32,594 nucleotides of DNA from Candidatus Zhuqueibacterota bacterium (GTDB lineage: Bacteria; Zhuqueibacterota; Zhuqueibacteria; Zhuqueibacterales; Geothermadaptataceae): contig JAUZRQ010000053.1 in NCBI GenBank assembly GCA_030950365.1, forward strand, positions 1 to 32,594, given 5' to 3'. Positions 4,239-25,349 of the stretch are shown here, piece by piece. The notes beneath the pieces are model-generated. The model was given only the letters and a program-made list of their open reading frames with translations, was not told the DNA's origin and did no database searches. Position 1 is the first letter of the stretch. Each line of letters starts with the position of its first letter. A program made the position numbers and the translations under genes.

Positions 4239-6395
4239 CTAATACCAGGTTGCATACCGAAACTTGAGCAGAAACTGATACGATTCCCGGGTCCAGCGGT
4301 CGGTGAGGGAGCGCGCCAGGTTGTGGTTGTACACGATAAACAGGTCGCCCTGCGGTGAAAACGTCCAGCGCAGGCGGGTGTTGGTGCCGATGGTGTTGCT
4401 TTCGTTGTCGTACTGGATAAAGCTGCTGATTTGCAAATCCGAAGACGGCGTAAAGGACAACCGCACGGCGTACAGCCGCTGGGTGAAGTTGCCCTCCTTC
4501 AGCCGGCCGTAGTTGAGCTCGCCGCTGATGCGGGCCACGAACACGGCCGAGGGCTTGATATCCATGTAAAATTCGATCTGATCCAGCCGGCCGCTGTAAA
4601 AACCGCCGAACCACCAGGTGACCTGTCCGCTAATCTTTCGCTTGTTGGCCAAACCGGCTTCGAGCCGGTAACGCAGCCAGTGGTAGGCGCCCACGGGTAT
4701 CACCACATTGTCGGAAATTTCGAACGGCTCCGGCAGGTTCTCGCCCTGCGGCACAATATTGAATTCGAACCGATCACCGCTTTCCAGCCGCCAGTTGATG
4801 GGCGCCATGAAGACCCGGTAGCTTTCCCACCGGTTCTGCAAATTGGTGACCAGATAGGGATAGAATTCATGAAACATCTGCCGCACCAATTTCCACTCCG
4901 GTCGTGGGGAATAGGTGACGCCCAGCCGCCAGATGTTCACTCCGGGCCGCGGCACAAAGCCGAGCGAGGGCGAAAAGCCATCACCGATGTGTTTGTACAC
5001 AAACGCGATGTCCCACAGGTCGTTGGGATAGTCGATTTTGAAACCGTACGCGGCTTTATCGCCGGTTACCCCCGCCCGCTGATTGTACAATCCCCACACG
5101 CCGATCAGGAAGTTTTTGTCGCCGCGAAAATACGACGTTTGATAGGTGAAATCCGCGCCGGCCAGCCAGCTATTTTCCCGGCCGAGCGGATCGCCAAACG
5201 TGGTGATGAGTCCCATGGACGATTCGCGCCAGATATTCTGTTTGAGGCGCACTACACCCATGGTAGTGGCCGGGGTGAGTCCGGCCACCGCGCGCGTGCG
5301 GGTGACCAGCGCGCCGATGTTGGTGTTGGCCACGCGGCCGTTGACTTTCAGTCCGGCGTCGATGGGGATTTGCTGGCCGCGGTACAGGCCAATGCGGCGG
5401 CTGAAAAAGGGAATAATGTCGCGGCTGAGACCGAGGCCAAATTCGAAAATATCGGCGCCGCGCAGGAAAAAGGTGCGTTTTTCCGGGAAAAACAGCGGAA
5501 ACCGGGTGAGGTTGGTCTGCCGGGCATCGACCTCGGTCTCGGCGAAATCGGTGTTGAGGGTGAGCGAAGCTTCGAGGTTGGGGCCGAACCGCTGCGTGAG
5601 GTCCAGGCTGAGGTCGCTGCGGACGTCGGTCGGGGCATTCGGCTCGAATATCCCGAAACCGCCGACCACAGACGGGCTGATGGTCAATCCGTGGCCGACA
5701 TCGAACGCGGGCAGGTGCATCAATTGCCCGGCATGGGTGGTCTGCCCGAATTCGTAATCGATGGTCGCCCCGGACCAGCGGTCGGTTTCCTGCAATCGCT
5801 GGATGCGGCGCTGCACGTTGAATCCCCAGACAGAACCGCCGCGCTGGAAGTTGAGACTCTTGACGGGCAGGTACATTTCCAGCGACCAGCCGTATGGGCC
5901 GATATGGGTTCGGGCATCCCAGACGGCGTCCCATTCGCTGTTTTCGTCTTCCCCCTGGCCAACTACAAGCGCGTCGTAGCGCGCCCCGGCCGGATTGATT
6001 TTGAAAATGTAGCCGGTGCGGCCGTCGTTGAAGGTGTCGAACACCAGCGCAATGTAATCTTCTCGGGACAGCCGCGCATCCCTGCCGCGACTGAATGCGA
6101 CGATCTGCTCGGGATGTGGATCGTAGCAGATTACGCCGATGTACAGCCCTTTGGCAGTGGCCAGCACCCGGACGCTGGTCGACGCCGATGGCGCGATACC
6201 CTGTTTCGGTTCGATCATGGTCAGGTGGGTGATGGAATCAGCCTGGAACCATGCCTGTTCCATTATCACGCCATCTAAATGAATGCGGCTTTTGAGTCTT
6301 CCGGCACGCAAAACCGGCCGATCTTTGGCCTGTGATCCGGCCGCAAGCAGAAACAAAAAAAACAGCGCTAACGAAAAGCAGTTTCCCGGTTTCAT
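4239..6395 (-). CDS. DUF5916 outer-membrane beta-barrel with N-terminal CBM9-like domain
   Basis: A 718-residue exported protein. A signal peptide spans residues 1-23 (hydrophobic core LALFFLFLLAAGSQA). Residues about 27-220 look like the carbohydrate-binding-family-9-like sandwich that opens DUF5916 proteins (LDGVIMEQAW, then GYIFKINPAG). The remainder is rich in alternating aromatic strands and ends in FRYATWY, as outer-membrane barrels do. FFPEKRTFFLRGADIFEFG (302-320) is the signature segment of the family. Function is not established; transport or attachment of a polymer-related ligand is a guess. Residues 205-211 read DRWSGAT, which matches the FMN-attachment pattern used by ApbE, encoded about 1 kb upstream on the same strand; this may be chance. 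The start lacks a close Shine-Dalgarno sequence. Confidence 0.85.
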   Translation of the reverse strand: MKPGNCFSLALFFLFLLAAGSQAKDRPVLRAGRLKSRIHLDGVIMEQAWFQADSITHLTMIEPKQGIAPSASTSVRVLATAKGLYIGVICYDPHPEQIVAFSRGRDARLSREDYIALVFDTFNDGRTGYIFKINPAGARYDALVVGQGEDENSEWDAVWDARTHIGPYGWSLEMYLPVKSLNFQRGGSVWGFNVQRRIQRLQETDRWSGATIDYEFGQTTHAGQLMHLPAFDVGHGLTISPSVVGGFGIFEPNAPTDVRSDLSLDLTQRFGPNLEASLTLNTDFAETEVDARQTNLTRFPLFFPEKRTFFLRGADIFEFGLGLSRDIIPFFSRRIGLYRGQQIPIDAGLKVNGRVANTNIGALVTRTRAVAGLTPATTMGVVRLKQNIWRESSMGLITTFGDPLGRENSWLAGADFTYQTSYFRGDKNFLIGVWGLYNQRAGVTGDKAAYGFKIDYPNDLWDIAFVYKHIGDGFSPSLGFVPRPGVNIWRLGVTYSPRPEWKLVRQMFHEFYPYLVTNLQNRWESYRVFMAPINWRLESGDRFEFNIVPQGENLPEPFEISDNVVIPVGAYHWLRYRLEAGLANKRKISGQVTWWFGGFYSGRLDQIEFYMDIKPSAVFVARISGELNYGRLKEGNFTQRLYAVRLSFTPSSDLQISSFIQYDNESNTIGTNTRLRWTFSPQGDLFIVYNHNLARSLTDRWTRESYQFLLKFRYATWY

Positions 6396-7372: not shown

Positions 7373-8404
7373 TCATTCGACAAGCTGTAATCCGTATTTC
7401 TGTTTCCAGGCCAGGTCATAATACACCGTCCCTGAATGATCGACGAAGAGGGCGAGCACGGGAGACGGTTGGAGCTTTTTGTATTGGGGCCAGCCGAGGA
7501 TGAAGAGATACGTAGCCCAGACGTCCGCGGCTTCGGCCGAAGGCGCCAGCACGGTGACGCTGCGGTAATCCGTCGCCGGATAACCGGTTCGCGGATCGAG
7601 AATGTGGTGGTAGCGTTTGTCATCGATGATGGCGTAGCGCTCGTAATCGCCGCTGGTGGCTACCGCAAAATCGGTCAGTTCAAAGGTCGCCAGTAGTTCG
7701 CTCAGTTGTCTTGGATGCTTTATACCGATGCGCCATTTGCGACCGTCCGCCTTCAGCCCCGAAGCGTAGATGTCGCCGCCGGCATTGATGAGGAACTGGC
7801 GAATGCCATGCTGGCGGAGCATCGCGGCGGCACGGTCGATAGCATAGCCCTTGGCGATGCCGCCGAGATCCACGCGCATGCCGGGCTTCAAGAAACGGAC
7901 TGTGGTGTCGGCCGGGTTAAGGCGGATCTGGCGGTAATCTACCAGCGCCAGTTTCTGTTGCAGCGTGTCAGGACCCGGCAGGCGAATATCGCCGTCTTCA
8001 TTGAAACCCCATAGAACCGAAATCGAGCCGATGGATATGTCGAACAGGCCGTGAAATTGCCGGCTGTAATCCAGCGCGCGCTGCAAAATGGCAAACGTTT
8101 CCGCAGAAACCCGCACCGGCCGTTGCGCGGCGGAGGCATTGAGTTTGCCGATCTCGCTATCGGCGCGGTGGGAGCTGAGGGTATTCTCGATGCGCTCCAT
8201 CTCACGAAAAGCAAAATAGCAGGCCTTTTTGGCTGCCTGCACGCTTTTGCCGAGCGCGATGATGTCGACCTGGGTGCCGAGCAGAAATTTGGTGGTGGAG
8301 ACTTCAAAGACGGGGGCAGTGGGCTTAGACTGTGCAAACAGCCCACCGCCATACAGCAGAACGACGAGAAAGGGCCAGCGTATCGATTTAGTAAACAATG
8401 CCAT
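7373..8404 (-). CDS. apbE: FAD:protein FMN transferase (ApbE)
   Basis: A 343-residue exported ApbE flavin transferase. It uses FAD to attach FMN covalently to Thr/Ser of extracytoplasmic acceptor proteins. A signal peptide is visible at residues 1-25. Family motifs are in order: DLGGIAKGYA (179-188), NAGGD (207-211), ATSGDYER (249-256), HILDPRTG (267-274), then the Mg-site Asp294 and Thr298 in EAADVWAT. The ATG at 8404 is chosen because CAGGGGTGG immediately precedes it; the frame continues upstream to a TTG at 8431. The start overlaps the NusG-II gene by 17 bases, indicating coupling. It is the last gene of the six-gene cluster, and likely substrates are encoded nearby. Confidence 0.95.
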   Translation of the reverse strand: MALFTKSIRWPFLVVLLYGGGLFAQSKPTAPVFEVSTTKFLLGTQVDIIALGKSVQAAKKACYFAFREMERIENTLSSHRADSEIGKLNASAAQRPVRVSAETFAILQRALDYSRQFHGLFDISIGSISVLWGFNEDGDIRLPGPDTLQQKLALVDYRQIRLNPADTTVRFLKPGMRVDLGGIAKGYAIDRAAAMLRQHGIRQFLINAGGDIYASGLKADGRKWRIGIKHPRQLSELLATFELTDFAVATSGDYERYAIIDDKRYHHILDPRTGYPATDYRSVTVLAPSAEAADVWATYLFILGWPQYKKLQPSPVLALFVDHSGTVYYDLAWKQKYGLQLVE

Positions 8405-9074
8405 CCACCCCTGCAGCGTTTTGACCGGCAACTACCACACGAACTTGATTTGGAATGCAAATCAGGTTTTGGCCGGGGCGGCGGATGGCGCCCATGTTCA
8501 TGCAGGTCTTGTGCCGGCAGCTCGATTCCACAATGCTGGCCTTGCCCTGGCGCACCGAAAGAGCGATAAAGCCGCGGATGCCGGCCACACGGAAATAGTC
8601 TCGATGATCTTCGAAACGGATTTCTTCCACCAATTGATTGCGCACGAACACCTGCAGCTTTTCGGGCTGTGCGTCAGCCGTGTCCTGTGAGAATTGCATC
8701 AGTACTGGATTCTCGACACGCCGCGGCATGCCGAATTGGCGCGCGATTTCCATGAGGCCGCGGGTCAGGTCATCCTGCGGCCGATAAAAATTGATCAGCC
8801 GGCCGCTGGCGATCAGCGCCATGTCCGAAAGGTGCTCGCCGGGCAGGGTGTATTCCGCGTATTTTAACGACGACCTGGAAAGGACCTGCGATTGCAGCAG
8901 GCTCTCCAGTTTGGTCAGCACCTCATCCGGCCGGTCGGTGACGATGCTCAATTGAAATGGCGATCGTGGCGCTTCACCGGCCGCGGCTTTGCGAAGGAAA
9001 AACGGCAGGGTGTTCGACAGCACCAGGCCGGAGGTGACGAACGAAATCTGTTTGATGAAATCGCGTCGCTTCAT
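8388..9074 (-). CDS. NusG-domain-II protein with twin-Arg-like leader
   Basis: A 228-residue protein beginning KRRDFIKQISF, a twin-arginine-like leader that suggests export in folded form. The C-terminal region about 138-220 resembles NusG domain II (NusG_II): a beta domain with ESSCRHKTC (Cys186, Cys191), the MGAIRRPGQ turn and a third cysteine, Cys206, in LICIPN. Such domains are often encoded beside apbE and rnf/FMN-binding genes; the cysteines may bind metal or be redox active, which is unproven. The middle region (about 40-135) is unrecognised. It overlaps apbE by 17 bases and follows the DUF3570 gene by 22 bases, so it lies inside the cluster. Confidence 0.82.
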   Translation of the reverse strand: MKRRDFIKQISFVTSGLVLSNTLPFFLRKAAAGEAPRSPFQLSIVTDRPDEVLTKLESLLQSQVLSRSSLKYAEYTLPGEHLSDMALIASGRLINFYRPQDDLTRGLMEIARQFGMPRRVENPVLMQFSQDTADAQPEKLQVFVRNQLVEEIRFEDHRDYFRVAGIRGFIALSVRQGKASIVESSCRHKTCMNMGAIRRPGQNLICIPNQVRVVVAGQNAAGVDGIVY

Positions 9075-9096
9075 AGCTGCATCTCCTGTATAAACA

Positions 9097-10257
9097 TTAA
9101 AAATGATAGCGCACGGAAAAACTCAAAATGTATGCGTACAGGTTTTTCAACCGGCTGTGCCAGTCGGGCGTGGCCGAATGCCGGTGGTAAAAGTTGAGAA
9201 TAAAATTGACCTGCAAATTCTCGTCCTGGAAAAATGGCACATTCTTAAAATAGCCACCATTGATGCTCAGTTTGATCTGATAGTTGTTGCTGTAATTTTC
9301 ATTGAGCTTGGTGTCCACCGTCATATATTCTTCCGGCCGCAGGTATTGCGGCTTGAAGAAAAAGGCGCGGTCCTGGATATAGTTCCGCAGCCCCAGTCCG
9401 AGAATGACAGCCGGATGCAAATACTGCTGATACAGGATATTGGTGGTCAGCGAATTGACATCCCAGCTATCCCAGTAATACCGGACGCCAAAATTCAGCG
9501 CGGCGCGCGGGCCGACCTTGTAATTCAGCCGGAGCCCGATGGCCTTACGAATGCGCCGATCGGGATGCGAGGTTTCATAGGTCGCCACCCGGTCGCCCTC
9601 GATGATGCGCACCACCTGATACGGATCCGCCAGATAGCCATGCGAATTGTTGTACGAAAGAATCACCTGCATGATGAAAATCGGGCTGAGAATCTGCGTG
9701 AAGTTGAAGCTGTAGGTGTACACGTCCTTCTTTCGGGTCCACGTGCGAATCTGGGGAAAGACGCGATCCCAGCTTCGAACGAATCCAAATTGCAGGGTGG
9801 TGTTTTTTTTCGCCAGCAGATAGGTGAACAGGCTGGCGAGGGTGAACGAGCTGTAATCGTGCTCACGGCTATACAGCGCGTTAAGGGAAAACGTGCCGCC
9901 CTTCAGAAGACCACCGGTGAGCAGTTCGTTCACGCCCAGCCCGATTTCATGCCGTACCTCGTCCGGCCGATCGTCGCCGCCGCCGTCCTCATTCTCCGTG
10001 GCCGAGGTCACGCCATCGACGTTGAAATGGCTGCGCATGGATGCGGCGCTGATCACATCAACCAGATAGCGGACACTGACCGTGGAGCTATCGGAAAAGC
10101 GTTTGGTCATCGAGATCGTCGGATAGACGATTTTGACATTAAAGTTATCAAAATAAGAATTAATTGCAACCTGCAATTCGTTATCCGGCAAATCCTGAGC
10201 GCGCAGCGGGCTGGCCAGCAGCAAAGCACAAAGTCCTGCTACCAGTCGTTTAACCAC
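9097..10257 (-). CDS. DUF3570 outer-membrane beta-barrel, candidate FMN acceptor
   Basis: A 386-residue DUF3570 protein. The start is GTG at 10257: GGAGG lies eight bases upstream, and the start overlaps the DUF4266 stop by eight bases. The longer open frame upstream runs through the DUF4266 gene and is discarded. A signal peptide (1-20) ends in SPLRA before QDLPDNE. Alternating strands follow, and the C-terminus SFSVRYHF is a typical barrel end. An extracellular or periplasmic loop carries DGVTSAT (81-87), close to the ApbE motif D-x-x-[ST]-G-A-[TS], with Thr87 as possible FMN site. A second match, DVISAAS, is at 67-73. DUF3570, DUF4266, thioredoxin and apbE genes are known to cluster. Role in redox transfer across the outer membrane is inferred. 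Confidence 0.85.
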   Translation of the reverse strand: MVKRLVAGLCALLLASPLRAQDLPDNELQVAINSYFDNFNVKIVYPTISMTKRFSDSSTVSVRYLVDVISAASMRSHFNVDGVTSATENEDGGGDDRPDEVRHEIGLGVNELLTGGLLKGGTFSLNALYSREHDYSSFTLASLFTYLLAKKNTTLQFGFVRSWDRVFPQIRTWTRKKDVYTYSFNFTQILSPIFIMQVILSYNNSHGYLADPYQVVRIIEGDRVATYETSHPDRRIRKAIGLRLNYKVGPRAALNFGVRYYWDSWDVNSLTTNILYQQYLHPAVILGLGLRNYIQDRAFFFKPQYLRPEEYMTVDTKLNENYSNNYQIKLSINGGYFKNVPFFQDENLQVNFILNFYHRHSATPDWHSRLKNLYAYILSFSVRYHF

Positions 10258-10480
10258 AGCCGCAACCTCCGCTTTGGGCTCCGGTGCCGCCCACGGAACC
10301 TTCCCGGTAGTCCAGATAGTGTTCTTTGATTCCGGCTTCGATGGGATTCTCATCAAAGATCATGATCGGATCGGCCAGCTCGCCGCGCTGCCACGGTTGC
10401 ACCATGGCACAGCTCATAAGGCCGGAAAACAGCAATCCCAGCATGGTTAAAATCATTCCTCTTCGGACTTTCCCTGTCAT
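10250..10480 (-). CDS. DUF4266 small lipoprotein with C-terminal GGCGCG
   Basis: A 76-residue lipoprotein. The signal ends in LMSC, making Cys24 the likely lipidated residue. The mature part has QPWQRGELADPIM, a family hallmark, then HYLDYREGSVGG and a Gly/Cys tail ending GGCGCG. DUF4266 proteins are nearly always encoded next to DUF3570 barrels; the function is unknown. The paired C-terminal cysteines might bind metal, cofactor or a thioredoxin partner (speculation). The stop overlaps the DUF3570 start, so the two are probably made in fixed ratio. The TlpA-like gene lies 23 bases upstream. Confidence 0.85.
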   Translation of the reverse strand: MTGKVRRGMILTMLGLLFSGLMSCAMVQPWQRGELADPIMIFDENPIEAGIKEHYLDYREGSVGGTGAQSGGCGCG

Positions 10481-10503
10481 GTTTTGCTCCCATGTTGATG
10501 CTG

Positions 10504-10992
10504 TTACAACAACTCCTTGATCCGGCGGATCAGCTCGGCCTTATCCTTTTCCTGAAATCCGGTGTGGCGGTAGCGGATCACGCCGTTTTTATCGATCAGA
10601 ATGGTGGTGGGCATGCCCTGTAGCCGATAGAGTCCAGCGATTTTGCCTTTAGGGTCGAACACAATCGGAAAAGCCGGTTTTGCCTTTTGTTTGTCAAGAA
10701 ACCGGCTCACTTTTTGAATATCTGTATCTACATTGATACCGATGACAGTAAAATTTTTGTTTTTCAATTGATGATGCAACTGCACCAGAAAGGGGAATTC
10801 CTGTTTACAGGGGCCGCACCAACTGGCCCAGAAATCTAGCAGCACGACTTTGCCTTTGTATTGAGACAGTTTCAATGTTTCGCCATTGAGCGTCTTTCCG
10901 GCAAAATCTGGCGCAGGCTTTTTGAGCGCCGAACTGCTGGCAAAACTGGTGATCAAGACCAGGGTCATCAAGATCATCAATATTCGCTTCAT
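10504..10992 (-). CDS. TlpA/ResA-like thioredoxin, exported
   Basis: A 162-residue periplasmic thioredoxin-fold protein. Residues 1-22 are a signal peptide, followed by the AhpC/TlpA start (APDFAGKTLNGETLKLSQYKG) and the redox motif WCGPC in DFWASWCGPCKQE. The cis-proline lies in GMPTTILID. Such proteins reduce disulfides in c-type cytochromes or partner lipoproteins. The ATG at 10992 is supported by GGAGG six bases upstream; the open frame extends further but without a ribosome site. It lies 44 bases after the haem-motif lipoprotein and 23 before the DUF4266 gene. Likely clients are the cysteine-rich neighbours (inference). Confidence 0.92.
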   Translation of the reverse strand: MKRILMILMTLVLITSFASSSALKKPAPDFAGKTLNGETLKLSQYKGKVVLLDFWASWCGPCKQEFPFLVQLHHQLKNKNFTVIGINVDTDIQKVSRFLDKQKAKPAFPIVFDPKGKIAGLYRLQGMPTTILIDKNGVIRYRHTGFQEKDKAELIRRIKELL

Positions 10993-11036
10993 CCTGAACC
11001 TCCTTTGGATATGAGTGTGATTTGAGTGTATCAGCG

Positions 11037-11369
11037 CTATTCGTCCTCCCACAAGGTGCCATGGCACTGAAAACAGGAAGGCGCAATGGTTTTGATGCCA
11101 TTCACCTCGGCAACGCCTCCGTCCAGGTCTTCCTGGTGGCATTTATCGCTGGAACAGCCGCTCGAAGGCCGGTATGGATATTTGAGGCCCTCGCGATGCA
11201 TGACCCCACTCACATTGACCGTATGATCATCTGGAGGCCCCTCCTTTTTTTGGGGCGGAAATGGAGCCTCGCAACCTATGGTTGTTAAAAGAATCCAACA
11301 TAAAATCAAAACGCGATAAACGAGCTGCATGTTTTTATGCTTGGGTTTTGACGCCGGAATGTTTACCAT
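11037..11369 (-). CDS. Small lipoprotein with two c-type haem motifs
   Basis: A 110-residue exported protein, first gene of the flavinylation cluster. A hydrophobic signal ends in TIGC, so Cys33 is probably lipidated. Two haem-attachment motifs follow: a CX4CH variant, CSSDKCH (72-78), and a classical CFQCH (99-103) near the C-terminus. CX4CH is used in some multihaem cytochromes. Extra histidines (49, 58) could be axial ligands. An electron carrier for the flavoproteins is a reasonable inference. Start choice is uncertain: ATG 11369 has a weak purine-rich site, and ATG 11330 gives a shorter signal. A promoter candidate lies 45 bases upstream of 11369. I do not recognise a named family. Confidence 0.75.
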   Translation of the reverse strand: MVNIPASKPKHKNMQLVYRVLILCWILLTTIGCEAPFPPQKKEGPPDDHTVNVSGVMHREGLKYPYRPSSGCSSDKCHQEDLDGGVAEVNGIKTIAPSCFQCHGTLWEDE

Positions 11370-11413
11370 ATTCTTCTGTGCTAGGGATGCTAGGCAAAAG
11401 CCATGCCGAGATC

Positions 11414-11441
11414 ATTTTGCATAGCTCTGTAAGATTGTCAA
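11414..11441 (-). promoter_or_regulatory. Candidate sigma70-type promoter of the flavinylation cluster
   Basis: Read on the minus strand, a perfect TTGACA (11441-11436) is followed after 16 bases by CAAAAT (11419-11414), four of six matches to TATAAT. A transcript would begin about 38 bases before the ATG at 11369. No operator is evident beside it. Confidence 0.4.
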
Positions 11442-11760
11442 AAGGTAATTAAAGAAAAGTCAGCTCTTTACTTTTGATGATGGTGCTGGAGGGGATGCTG
11501 GAATGGAGGGCATTTTGTTGAAAATCACAGAAACGGTCACAAGCCCATTACATTTACGTTATTTTGTTTCAAATATGGGGTTCCAGTGGGGGCTACAAGG
11601 GATATGTAAAAATACCATACCACGGCGCATTGATTGTATAAAATTTCCAGCCTTGAGCAGTCGGTTCCCAATCATTTTGAAAATAAAAAGGTTGCGAACG
11701 TACAACGGGTGCCATCATCGGCTATGCTGGTTTTCTGCCAACGGCGGGCATGCAATTTGC

Positions 11761-11790
11761 TTGAATGTGTTTATTGCATTGCAATACGAT
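11761..11790 (+). promoter_or_regulatory. Candidate promoter with palindromic operator before the DUF2271 gene
   Basis: TTGAAT (11761-11766) and TACGAT (11785-11790) are 18 bases apart. Most of the spacer is a perfect palindrome, TATTGCA-T-TGCAATA (11772-11786). The layout fits a repressor or MerR-like activator site, but the boxes are weak and no regulator is encoded nearby. Confidence 0.3.
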
Positions 11791-11846
11791 CGATGTTCAC
11801 GATATGCAGGGGCAACGGAATGAGCTACTTCAGGAGAATGTGCCAA

Positions 11847-13247
11847 ATGCGAAAATCAGGCCGGACGGTGGCGATCATTGCCACCGTACTCGCGATGGTG
11901 CTAGGACAGGGAAGCCGGGACGGATTCGCACAAACCCAGGGCAGGGTTACGTTTCGTGTGACCACCACGAGCTATGGGGGCAAATACGCAGATAAACATG
12001 TTGGAGCGATTTGGGTGGAGGACGCTCAAAATCAATTTATTAAAACATTGAAAGTGTGGGCTAAAAAACGAATCAAACATCTCGTCAAATGGAATGCCGC
12101 AAGTAATGGCAATAAAGTAGATGCGATTACTTCGGCCACGCTGCGCAGCCACCGTTCGCACGAGGTCACCTGGAACTGCACCGATGTGAACGGCGCCGTG
12201 GTGTCGGATGGCGTGTATCGCATCTATGTTGAGTTCACCGAGGATAATTCGGCCAAATCCAGCGGCAAGCCGGGCAAATGGATGGTGGTGGAATTCACCA
12301 AGGGGCCGAATGATCAAACGGTGAATCCGCCGGACAAAACCTATTTCAAAAATATCGAGCTGATTTATACGGCCAGTGGGAGCGCCCCGCCACAACTGGC
12401 CTCGGTATCCGGGCGCGTTCAGGACAGCCAATCGCAATCCGCAATTGTTGACGCAACGGTGACTCTTCTCCGTAACGGACAGAGCGTGAAACAAACGCAA
12501 AGCGGATCCGATGGCGGCTACCAGTTTGCCGATATTCAGGCCGGCACGTATACCATCCGGGCCGCGGCATCCGGATATCAGCCCGGGGAAATCTCGGTGA
12601 CCCTGCAGGCCGGCGATGCCCTCACCGGGCGGAACATCTTGTTGGATCCGGTGGTGCAACCGGCATCGCTGCAGGGCAAAGTGGTGGATGCCAGCAATCA
12701 GCAGCCCATCGCCGGCGCGACGGTGCAACTGCAGGTCGGCGGGCAGGTAAAATACGAAACGCGGACGGTGAACGATGGGCAGTTCGGCCTGCCAAATATT
12801 CAGCCAGGCACCTATTCGCTGGTCGCGTTCAAGGATGGCTACGAGACGGCCAGCGAAACCATTACCCTGGCGGACGGCCAGCAGATGACCGGCAAAATTC
12901 TTCAGCTTACGCCGGTCGTGAACGGCGCCAGCTTTAGCGGCACCATCCTCGATGCGCAAACCGGTCAGCCGGTAAACGGCGCTACGGTGCAGCTTCTGCA
13001 ATCGGGACAGGTGGTGCAAGAAACGCAAACGGACGCCAGCGGCCGCTTCGCGTTTCAGGACGTGGCCCCCGGCAACTACACCCTCAAAGTGAGCCGCGAT
13101 GGCTATGCAAGCAGGACCGAGTCGGTGACCCTAAACCCCGGCGATAATGTTTCGGGGCGGACCATTCAGGTGACGCCGCAGCAAACGGCCGACACCACCC
13201 CGCCAACGCCGCCGCGCAATGTTCGCGCGCGCAAGCTTGGCAATTAG
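11847..13247 (+). CDS. DUF2271-type candidate flavoprotein with three CarboxypepD_reg-like repeats
   Basis: A 466-residue exported protein. ATG 11847 is chosen: AGGAG (11832-11836) is ten bases upstream and a signal peptide follows (1-28, ending GFAQ). Upstream in-frame ATGs at 11820 and 11838 are less well placed. Residues about 32-178 resemble DUF2271 (VGAIWVEDAQNQFIKTL, VTWNCTDVNG, DGVYRIYVEF) and contain DAITSAT (92-98), the ApbE target pattern, with Thr98 as likely FMN site. Three homologous repeats of about 88 residues follow (184-271, 272-359, 360-446), each with G-x-V/I-x-D, GATVQL-like and PGxYxL motifs of carboxypeptidase-regulatory-like folds. The tail is Pro/Arg rich. It is divergent from the apbE cluster. 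A redox role anchored to the envelope is inferred. Confidence 0.82.
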   Translation: MRKSGRTVAIIATVLAMVLGQGSRDGFAQTQGRVTFRVTTTSYGGKYADKHVGAIWVEDAQNQFIKTLKVWAKKRIKHLVKWNAASNGNKVDAITSATLRSHRSHEVTWNCTDVNGAVVSDGVYRIYVEFTEDNSAKSSGKPGKWMVVEFTKGPNDQTVNPPDKTYFKNIELIYTASGSAPPQLASVSGRVQDSQSQSAIVDATVTLLRNGQSVKQTQSGSDGGYQFADIQAGTYTIRAAASGYQPGEISVTLQAGDALTGRNILLDPVVQPASLQGKVVDASNQQPIAGATVQLQVGGQVKYETRTVNDGQFGLPNIQPGTYSLVAFKDGYETASETITLADGQQMTGKILQLTPVVNGASFSGTILDAQTGQPVNGATVQLLQSGQVVQETQTDASGRFAFQDVAPGNYTLKVSRDGYASRTESVTLNPGDNVSGRTIQVTPQQTADTTPPTPPRNVRARKLGN

Positions 13248-23495: not shown

Positions 23496-25349
23496 TTATC
23501 CAACAGAATCTTTTTTCAGATAGGATTGTAGTTCTTCTTTTAGATGTTCTATTTCGTTTTTTAATTTATGAAACACTTTCGCGGCGCCATCCATATTTCC
23601 ATCTTTTGCGAGTTTTTCCAATTCTTGCGCTTTTTGGTATGGTGAATTTGCAGCCAGAGTGGCAAGTGAACCTTTTAAAGTATGTGCGGTCCTTTGTAGC
23701 ATTTTGTTGTCCTTTGATGAAATAGCCTCTTGAATTTGTTCCAGCAACCTACTGGCATCATCCTGAAAAATCGAAATGATTTCAATCAACAAGTTTTTAT
23801 CATTGTCAACTTGTTGCTGCAATGTATCTTCGGAAAACAGCTTATTCGAAGCGCTACTATTTCGTTTCGTTAAGAAAATCTCCTCCTGTTCATTATGGCT
23901 TTCTAAAGATGGCGTCATTGAACTTTGCCGGTCTAAATCGGGAATTATCTCTGTTGAGAGTATTTCTTTGACATCAACAACTTTTACCGATTCTTGTGGA
24001 TTTAATTGCTCTTGTTGAAGAATCTGGATCACTGTTTCGATCAATTCGTGTGCGTCGGCGCTCTTTACAACGACAGCGTTTGCACCTGCTTCTAAGGCTT
24101 TCAATCTGGTTTCAGCCTGGTCGTCGGTCGTGAATAGAATTAATTTTATATTGTTCAAAGCATCCTGGCGCCGTACTTCATGGCAGATTTCAATTCCCGA
24201 AAGCCCTGGAAGCATGTAATCCAATATAGCGGCATCGGGGCGTTCATTCAGTATCAATGTCAGTGCTTCCTTGCCATCAGCCGCCGTGATTGGATGAAAC
24301 CCGGCTCTTCGAAGCAATCGGGTATAAAGCCGTAAAATGACAGGATTATCATCAACGATGAGAATTTTGTGACGTTCTTTGATTTTAGAAGAAAGTGGTC
24401 TTTCAGAGGTTTTGGTAATGATCAACAGTTTGTCGCCGATTTTAATGCGAAAGTTGTCCTTGGGGAATAATGTATCTTTGTGTCCACGTCGGATCCCCAA
24501 TATCCGAACATGGTTTTCCTGCTGAATATTGGCAATGGGCTTGTGGAGCCAATCAGAATCCTGGTCGATAACGAGCCATTGTAAGCCGGAATGGTCTTTC
24601 ACATTCGCAAGGGCTTGTATAGACAGGTCGCCTGTGGCACTCAACATTTGGATGGCCATTTGGAGGCCGGCCGTTTTATATGGTGATATGACTTCATCTG
24701 CACCAGCCCTTATTAATTTTCTCTCCGATGCTTCGTTGTCGGCTCGGGCAATAATATGTAGTGTAGGGTTTAATTCGCGTGCAGTTAATGTGATAAACAA
24801 GTTGTCCGGAACGGAGGGCAATAAAGTTAATAGCCCATTGGCGCGTTTAATTCCCGCGAGCTGCAGAATGGTTTCATCAATAGCGTCTCCTTCGATATAT
24901 AACAGACCTTTTTCGCTTAACTCTTGACAGCGTTCTTTTTTGGCATCGATAATCACAAAGTCCACGTCTAGATCACAAAACCGCTGGGCTGCGGCCGCCC
25001 CCACTCTTCCAAATCCACAAATGATATAATGAGAATGTAGATTTTGAATCTGCTGGATCATGCGTTTCCTCGCACTATGGGGATCAACAATTTTCTCGAA
25101 AAAAATCTCTAAAAATGCATGGCCTACGAAGGCCAGGTTGATAAAACCAAGAAAAATTAAAATGGTTGTTAAAAAGCGCCCAGTTGGCGTCAAGGGTCTC
25201 ACTTCTCCAAAGCCGACCGTGGTGATAGTAATTATGGTCATATACAGACCTTCGCCCGGGGTATAATCTTCTATGATGACATATCCAATCGTCCCTGATA
25301 GGATGAGAATAAATAAAAAGATAAGGGGAATAAAAATGTGTCGCTTCAT
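23496..25349 (-). CDS. K+ channel-RCK fused to response-regulator receiver and HPt domains
   Basis: A 617-residue multidomain membrane protein. Two helices (about 5-25 and 59-82) flank a pore loop with selectivity filter TTVGFGE (43-49), as in two-helix K+ channels. An RCK/TrkA-N domain follows (about 106-235; CGFGRVGAAA, IIDAKKE, EGDA), then TrkA-C (about 240-315). Residues about 327-445 are a receiver domain with acidic pair Asp333/334, phosphoacceptor Asp377 in ILDYMLPG, Thr407/408 and Lys429. After a polar linker, residues about 505-612 form an HPt domain with phospho-His556 in AHTLKGS. No histidine kinase is present or encoded nearby. Phosphorylation may gate ion flow, or ions/ligands may tune a phosphorelay (inference). 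The gene is markedly AT-richer than its neighbours. Confidence 0.92.
   Translation of the reverse strand: MKRHIFIPLIFLFILILSGTIGYVIIEDYTPGEGLYMTIITITTVGFGEVRPLTPTGRFLTTILIFLGFINLAFVGHAFLEIFFEKIVDPHSARKRMIQQIQNLHSHYIICGFGRVGAAAAQRFCDLDVDFVIIDAKKERCQELSEKGLLYIEGDAIDETILQLAGIKRANGLLTLLPSVPDNLFITLTARELNPTLHIIARADNEASERKLIRAGADEVISPYKTAGLQMAIQMLSATGDLSIQALANVKDHSGLQWLVIDQDSDWLHKPIANIQQENHVRILGIRRGHKDTLFPKDNFRIKIGDKLLIITKTSERPLSSKIKERHKILIVDDNPVILRLYTRLLRRAGFHPITAADGKEALTLILNERPDAAILDYMLPGLSGIEICHEVRRQDALNNIKLILFTTDDQAETRLKALEAGANAVVVKSADAHELIETVIQILQQEQLNPQESVKVVDVKEILSTEIIPDLDRQSSMTPSLESHNEQEEIFLTKRNSSASNKLFSEDTLQQQVDNDKNLLIEIISIFQDDASRLLEQIQEAISSKDNKMLQRTAHTLKGSLATLAANSPYQKAQELEKLAKDGNMDGAAKVFHKLKNEIEHLKEELQSYLKKDSVG

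Follow-up and report, generated by a model that had tools for sequence, protein, structure and literature searches.

ApbE attaches flavin mononucleotide (FMN) to the last Thr or Ser of the motif D-x-x-[ST]-G-A-[TS]. DUF2271 and DUF3570 proteins have been shown to be ApbE substrates in other species by co-expression and site mutants, DUF3570 with two sites, and the genes for ApbE, DUF3570, DUF4266 and a thioredoxin-like protein occur clustered, with or without DsbD, which is typical but not universal (316 published DUF3570 clusters are without it; Meheust et al., eLife 2021, PMC8238504). We analyzed a stretch of 32,594 nucleotides (the window; GenBank assembly GCA_030950365.1, contig JAUZRQ010000053.1, contig C86 in our numbering) of a Candidatus Zhuqueibacterota bacterium, whose 4.98 Mb genome is 95% complete and whose nearest relatives with a name belong to candidate division KSB1. 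It holds a real and widespread variant of the known flavinylation system, namely an operon in which the four core families are joined by a dihaem lipoprotein and an exported NusG_II protein, with a DUF2271 gene on the opposite strand. With a probability of roughly 0.6, we propose that the operon and the divergent gene make an outer-membrane pore bearing covalent flavins, together with a small lipoprotein that carries haem, and hence a covalent-flavin redox complex of the envelope.

The features concerned are listed here by window position; all Pfam scores lie above their cut-offs.

7373-8431, minus strand: ApbE, FAD (flavin adenine dinucleotide):protein FMN transferase, start TTG 8431 or ATG 8404 (PF02424, E=1e-86, 291 bits against a cut-off of 25.6)
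8388-9074, minus strand: exported NusG_II protein with twin-arginine (Tat) signal RRDFIKQ, ferredoxin-like N-domain and NusG_II domain (PF07009, 59 bits against a cut-off of 29.6; structural model; Foldseek)
9097-10257, minus strand: DUF3570, 386 residues from a GTG start (PF12094, 131 bits; AlphaFold model; Foldseek matches to outer-membrane barrels)
9997-10017, minus strand: candidate flavinylation site 2 of DUF3570, DGVTSAT, residues 81-87, acceptor T87 (motif and conservation)
10039-10059, minus strand: candidate flavinylation site 1 of DUF3570, DVISAAS, residues 67-73, acceptor S73 (motif and conservation)
10250-10480, minus strand: DUF4266 lipoprotein, C-terminus CGCG, its gene running over the start of DUF3570 (PF14086, 71.6 bits)
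10504-10992, minus strand: TlpA/ResA-like thioredoxin (WCGPC) with signal peptide (PF00578/PF08534, AhpC-TSA/Redoxin, ~105 bits; ResA is the best NCBIfam match, under cut-off)
11037-11369, minus strand: dihaem c-type lipoprotein, likely start ATG 11330 (lipobox C33, C72-x4-C77-H78, C99-x2-C102-H103; alignment of seven)
11847-13247, plus strand: DUF2271 domain, three CarboxypepD_reg repeats and a DTTPPxPPxNV tail, start ATG 11847 or 11820 (PF10029, 40.1 bits against a cut-off of 27.3; PF13620 in three stretches)
12120-12140, plus strand: candidate flavinylation site of DUF2271, DAITSAT, residues 92-98 from ATG 11847, acceptor T98 (motif, D-A-[IVT]-T-S-A-T in 5/5 loci)

Transcription on the minus strand runs from the dihaem lipoprotein through the thioredoxin, DUF4266, DUF3570 and NusG_II to ApbE. 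The gaps measure 44 base pairs (bp) between lipoprotein and thioredoxin, 23 bp between thioredoxin and DUF4266 and 22 bp between DUF3570 and NusG_II; DUF4266 overlaps DUF3570, whose GTG start lies at 10257, by 8 bp (TGTGGTTAA), and the overlap of NusG_II with ApbE is 17 bp if ApbE starts at ATG 8404 and 44 bp if it starts at TTG 8431. A preliminary description of the locus, made from the sequence, had given six genes on one strand with close spacing, a divergent DUF2271 gene and the positions of DGVTSAT and DAITSAT, and the Pfam scores and coordinates bear it out in all of these. A DUF5916-type gene (4239-6395) lies ~1 kb downstream of the operon and is left out of the unit, and the divergent intergenic region contains no inverted repeats. 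ApbE, DUF3570 and DUF2271 were each detected once in the genome, as was an FMN_bind protein, which carries the canonical DAITGAT and is encoded on contig C15, away from the operon. With the published DUF3570 cluster (PMC8238504) the locus shares the four core families in one operon and two acceptor sites in DUF3570. It differs by the added dihaem lipoprotein and Tat-exported NusG_II, by Ala (site 1) and Ser (site 2) where the published [S/T]GA[S/T] has Gly, and apparently by a thioredoxin that is TlpA/ResA-like, with strong PF00578/PF08534 matches, rather than of the PF13899 family (13 bits, under the cut-off of 27). Cytochrome-c assembly genes and DsbD are present in the genome, DsbD not beside the operon but only on contig C15.

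Three candidate flavinylation sites are thus found, two in DUF3570 and one in DUF2271. These occurrences are not due to chance, since composition shuffles predict 0.0046 motifs in DUF3570, where two are seen, and 0.014 in DUF2271, where one is seen. The preliminary description had named DGVTSAT as the single DUF3570 site; that site stands, but DVISAAS had been overlooked. Both fall in the region of the two Chlorobiales DUF3570 sites, and the site that almost all other DUF3570s have in common (DSVSGAS in Chlorobiales, DALTGAS in Gammaproteobacteria) is the counterpart of site 1 in the alignment. We compared 19 related DUF3570s of the window's branch, the named loci, which make up most of them, being gathered by peptides outside the motif and the unnamed ones by the Pfam profile. 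At site 1, D, A and S are kept in 19/19, with Ala at position 5 in 18 and Ser in one; at site 2, D, G, S and A are kept in 19/19, with a final T in 16 and S in three; Gly never occurs at position 5 of either. Among 356 seven-residue windows of DUF3570, only six equal or exceed site 1 in conservation and four site 2, while the flanking loop residues are average.

The preliminary description had regarded Ser in place of Gly as a possible variant. The change is real, Gly being the residue at motif position 5 in Chlorobiales and Gammaproteobacteria, yet as judged from the alignments it became fixed long ago in entire branches and is not a peculiarity of the window locus. The Ala/Ser motifs might instead be decayed sites that stay unmodified in the source organism, ApbE serving only the distant FMN_bind protein. 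Gly is indeed the described residue, its replacement by Ala lowers modification and a DAITGAT protein does exist on contig C15; nevertheless, the Gly-less motifs rank among the most conserved DUF3570 stretches across deep lineages and ApbE is encoded inside the operon, so that we consider decay very improbable. Flavinylation of both acceptors, DUF3570 and DUF2271, is highly probable: both families are flavinylated elsewhere (PMC8238504) and their motif columns are conserved, which supports the flavinylation locus with these two acceptors of the preliminary description. The two-acceptor idea itself follows from already known families.

Besides the window, four relatives (G001, G019, G028 and G040) carry the divergent DUF2271 gene, and in all five loci the motif ends in T-S-A-T, so that [S/T]GA[S/T] is not matched. 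Like the DUF2271 flavoproteins of Amantichitinum ursilacus, Caulobacter and Alteromonas (PMC11870441, PMC7190382), the window protein has a DUF2271 domain above the Pfam cut-off and a D-x-x-T-x-A-T site; unlike them, this type is fused to one to three CarboxypepD_reg repeats (3, 2, 1, 1 and 1 across the five loci, two of them counted by reading the sequence), lies beside a DUF3570 operon and has Ser for Gly. All five proteins end in the DTTPPxPPxNV tail (window 13190-13247, and L095-L098), which resembles the start of a fibronectin III domain whose remainder is missing. DUF2271-like matches beside Chlorobiales DUF3570 genes were rejected, as they are cupredoxin-CarboxypepD_reg proteins. Such a protein adjoins DUF3570 operons in the order of the Chloroherpetonaceae locus L128 (L256 4170-4778, L257 4011-4619), which parallels the window's DUF2271-CarboxypepD_reg gene; the L256 operon also has a class I cytochrome c as a neighbor.

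The operon's ApbE aligns its catalytic triad, S260-H276-D303, with Ser257, His273 and Asp301 of FmnB (7esa; triad from PMC8906456), and the ApbEs of such operons group together in a single clade (12/12, support 100/99). Three residues before the Mg-ligand Asp303 lies Glu300, which is present in 30/31 ApbEs paired with a Gly-less DUF3570, in 0/29 paired with a Gly-containing DUF3570 and in 0/27 other ApbEs of KSB1 relatives not beside DUF3570. G028, in which no ApbE adjoins the operon, has this residue too, in a second ApbE encoded at another place. Hence, Glu300 appears to track Gly-less sites, and we keep it as no more than a lead to the recognition of the variant motif by this particular ApbE, which the preliminary description had suggested. 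As a specificity residue, however, we do not accept it as shown: it is confined to two ApbE clades, and the Gly-type ApbEs, which group in a single clade, diverge at numerous further positions as well (195, 303, 118), so that ancestry confounds the pairing; G002 and G004 break it, having Gly-less DUF3570s but ApbEs with only Met, Ala or Thr at position 300; and the sole detected ApbE of the genome must also serve the FMN_bind protein with DAITGAT. His275 was rejected as a specificity residue, since it also occurs in FmnB and in Treponema pallidum Ftp. As a separate observation, all 29 ApbEs paired with Gly-type DUF3570s (L132-L152, L185-L214) have Gly at the FmnB Mg-ligand Asp301, and at residue 195 of the window's ApbE they have Glu in place of the Gly of others, possibly a swap of metal ligands. 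In the NusG_II and ApbE pair of L253 (G012:C148), the ApbE frame loses its active-site motifs (ATNGDYENS, no HHI motif) and keeps Glu300, and may be a pseudogene or frameshifted.

At least six phylum-level lineages have the six genes in this order, namely KSB1, Calditrichota, Kapaibacteria, Ignavibacteria (complete in L124, without the thioredoxin in L126 and L127), Chloroherpetonaceae and Gemmatimonadota; Latescibacterota and Eisenbacteria have partial loci. Apart from the window, 18 loci of the branch were compared: the dihaem gene lies upstream in 15 of the 16 that have enough DNA, and NusG_II follows in 14/18. The same profiles detected neither gene in over 60 DUF3570 loci outside the branch, many with limited flanking DNA and most from Gammaproteobacteria, Bacteroidota and the Chlorobiales-like order of L128. 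By this comparison, the dihaem and NusG_II genes are marks of the window's DUF3570 branch. These counts bear on a plainer explanation, in which thioredoxin, DUF4266, DUF3570 and ApbE are the working unit of an ordinary published cluster and cytochrome, NusG_II and DUF2271 are incidental neighbors. The four core genes do match that cluster, and dihaem and NusG_II genes are dispensable at many DUF3570 loci; we nevertheless regard it as unlikely, given that both genes recur across deep lineages of this branch and were not detected in the comparison loci, many of which have limited flanking DNA.

The lipoprotein gave no Pfam match, and NCBIfam TIGR01904 (CxxxxCH/CxxCH; GSu C4xC/C2xCH cytochrome domain) scores 16.5 bits, under the cut-off of 27. 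It nevertheless has a lipobox and the haem motifs CSSDKCH and CFQCH, and seven homologues have in common the lipobox Cys, C-x4-C-H, C-x2-C-H, H49 and H58, the last two of which could be the distal haem ligands. The homologue in L128 (Chloroherpetonaceae) carries ~12 haem motifs as repeats of the same module and matches Cytochrome_C7; this expansion favors an electron-transfer role for the lipoprotein, and electron exchange with the cytochrome has, in our estimate, slightly better than even odds. The preliminary description's electron-transfer chain linking flavoprotein, haem lipoprotein and barrel is a reasonable inference. In L122 (6475-7209), the dihaem lipoprotein is fused to an additional C-terminal domain without a Pfam match.

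DUF4266 ends in GGCGCG and so has the C-terminal CxC. Haem-binding Cys pairs must be reduced before haem attachment, and thioredoxin, DUF4266 and lipoprotein could accordingly be a ResA/CcmG-like maturation set for c-type haem and disulfides that lies outside the electron path, the DUF3570 flavins acting alone with diffusing substrates. ResA being the best NCBIfam match of the thioredoxin, if under cut-off, fits such a role; but thioredoxin and DUF4266 accompany DUF3570 where the dihaem gene is absent, and the thioredoxin is missing where that gene is present (L126, L127), which makes a maturation set quite unlikely.

The AlphaFold model of DUF3570 (25 sequences; mean predicted local distance difference test score, pLDDT, 86.9; predicted template modeling score 0.80) has 16 long strands and a C-terminal Phe, and its Foldseek matches in the PDB are outer-membrane barrels, the best by template modeling (TM) score including BcsC (0.55) and PelB (0.52). 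The protein is therefore predicted to be a 16-strand outer-membrane barrel. In the model, strand 3 finishes with site 1, and the loop 71-99 that joins it to strand 4 contains site 2. By strand parity this β3-β4 loop with both sites is predicted to be extracellular, because the N-terminus is taken as periplasmic, as is usual for such barrels; the summed loop lengths counted from the model, ~108 residues on the site-bearing side against ~39 on the opposite one, agree. Display of the barrel flavins at the surface is, on this model, marginally favored.

The NusG_II protein, whose NusG_II domain has C186-x-H188-x-x-C191...C206-x-P, is modeled with a pLDDT of 77; Foldseek matches it to Aquifex aeolicus NusG, Lin0431 and 4esn, with target TM-scores of 0.81-0.86 against 3ld7, 4esn and 4obi. 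R3, R4, F6, C186, H188, C191, C206 and P208 are invariant in 15 sequences. With the NusG_II/DUF1312 proteins (Lin0431, 4esn, 4obi) it shares the fold, and with standalone KSB1 members the three-Cys pattern; it differs by a Tat signal and a ferredoxin-like domain instead of a membrane anchor and by the additional His, which the standalone proteins, apparently membrane-anchored, do not have. Tat export of such a Cys/His-rich protein suggests that it may carry a cofactor, possibly a metal. NusG is not mentioned in the main text of PMC8238504, and no paper connecting NusG domain II with flavinylation turned up in a search of the literature. In most inspected loci a putative Gx-transporter gene, recognized by eye only, adjoins the standalone KSB1 NusG_II. 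Nearly all 20 of these proteins (L153-L172) have a C-terminal [DN]-x-[IV]-[TI]-x (DVITQ, DAITG, DMITG), which resembles the first half of D-x-x-T-G-A-T and is possibly a docking mimic for ApbE, or merely a structural strand end. Elsewhere in the window (23496-25349), one 617-residue protein joins Ion channel, TrkA-N/C, response-regulator receiver and Hpt domains.

Altogether, we propose a covalent-flavin complex that would work as follows. Periplasmic ApbE would move FMN from FAD to S73 and T87 of DUF3570 and T98 of DUF2271, by a chemistry shown for the families. DUF3570 would be flavinylated before folding into the barrel, which would place two FMNs 14 residues apart in the long β3-β4 loop, either facing outward or tucked into the pore. 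Electrons might travel, in one direction or the other, between the envelope and an extracellular partner by way of the TlpA-like thioredoxin, the DUF4266 lipoprotein with its CxC tail and the dihaem lipoprotein, not necessarily in this order, and the Tat-exported NusG_II, possibly metal-bearing, may be the dedicated partner of the operon's ApbE branch. The most likely purpose would be reduction of an external acceptor such as ferric iron, to which published links of both carrier families tentatively point: 25 published DUF3570 clusters contain an iron transporter (PMC8238504), iron limitation induces DUF2271 genes in Alteromonas (PMC7190382) and such genes are induced in Caulobacter iron-stress mutants (PMC11870441). 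Iron as the partner is nonetheless doubtful and the link weak, because no iron gene was recognized among the annotated genes around the operon.

Several points weigh against the proposed complex, which is inferred from computation and published family chemistry. The window sites have no Gly at position 5, and in a different ApbE system, replacing Gly by Ala left only about half of the flavinylation (PMC12052999). The site 2 loop has a pLDDT below 50, so that it may lie either outside or inside the pore, and signal peptides and lipoboxes were assigned by eye. The operon encodes no quinol or membrane electron donor; DUF2271 beside it was found only in KSB1- or Caldithrix-labeled loci; and L100, L101, L120 and L122 have the same DUF3570 type without adjacent NusG_II and ApbE.

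Like MtrCAB-type porin-cytochrome conduits, the locus encodes an outer-membrane barrel with a c-type cytochrome, for a proposed electron transfer across the outer membrane. In contrast to their large barrel and decahaem-type cytochrome, it has a 16-strand model, two haem motifs and predicted covalent flavins on the barrel, and no sequence relation was found. A bolder, and as a whole improbable, conjecture is that an ApbE branch with its own Gly-less motif, marked by Glu300 and with the Tat NusG_II as its dedicated partner, serves a barrel showing two surface covalent flavins and wired to a CX4CH/CX2CH cytochrome expandable to ~12 haems. In the literature searched, we found no description of the haem/NusG_II version, the altered motifs or the predicted surface flavins.

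In summary, DUF3570-based flavinylation is without an assigned function, and a version with a haem lipoprotein in several deep lineages, together with predicted surface flavins, makes that function directly testable. Ala/Ser fixed in place of Gly, together with the ApbE residue that goes with it, bears on how ApbE picks its substrates, which is useful also for flavin-tagging, and the NusG_II link suggests an unrecognized ApbE partner. If true, the Gly-less ApbE branch, flavin barrel and cytochrome would be a flavin-based counterpart of the porin-cytochrome conduits.

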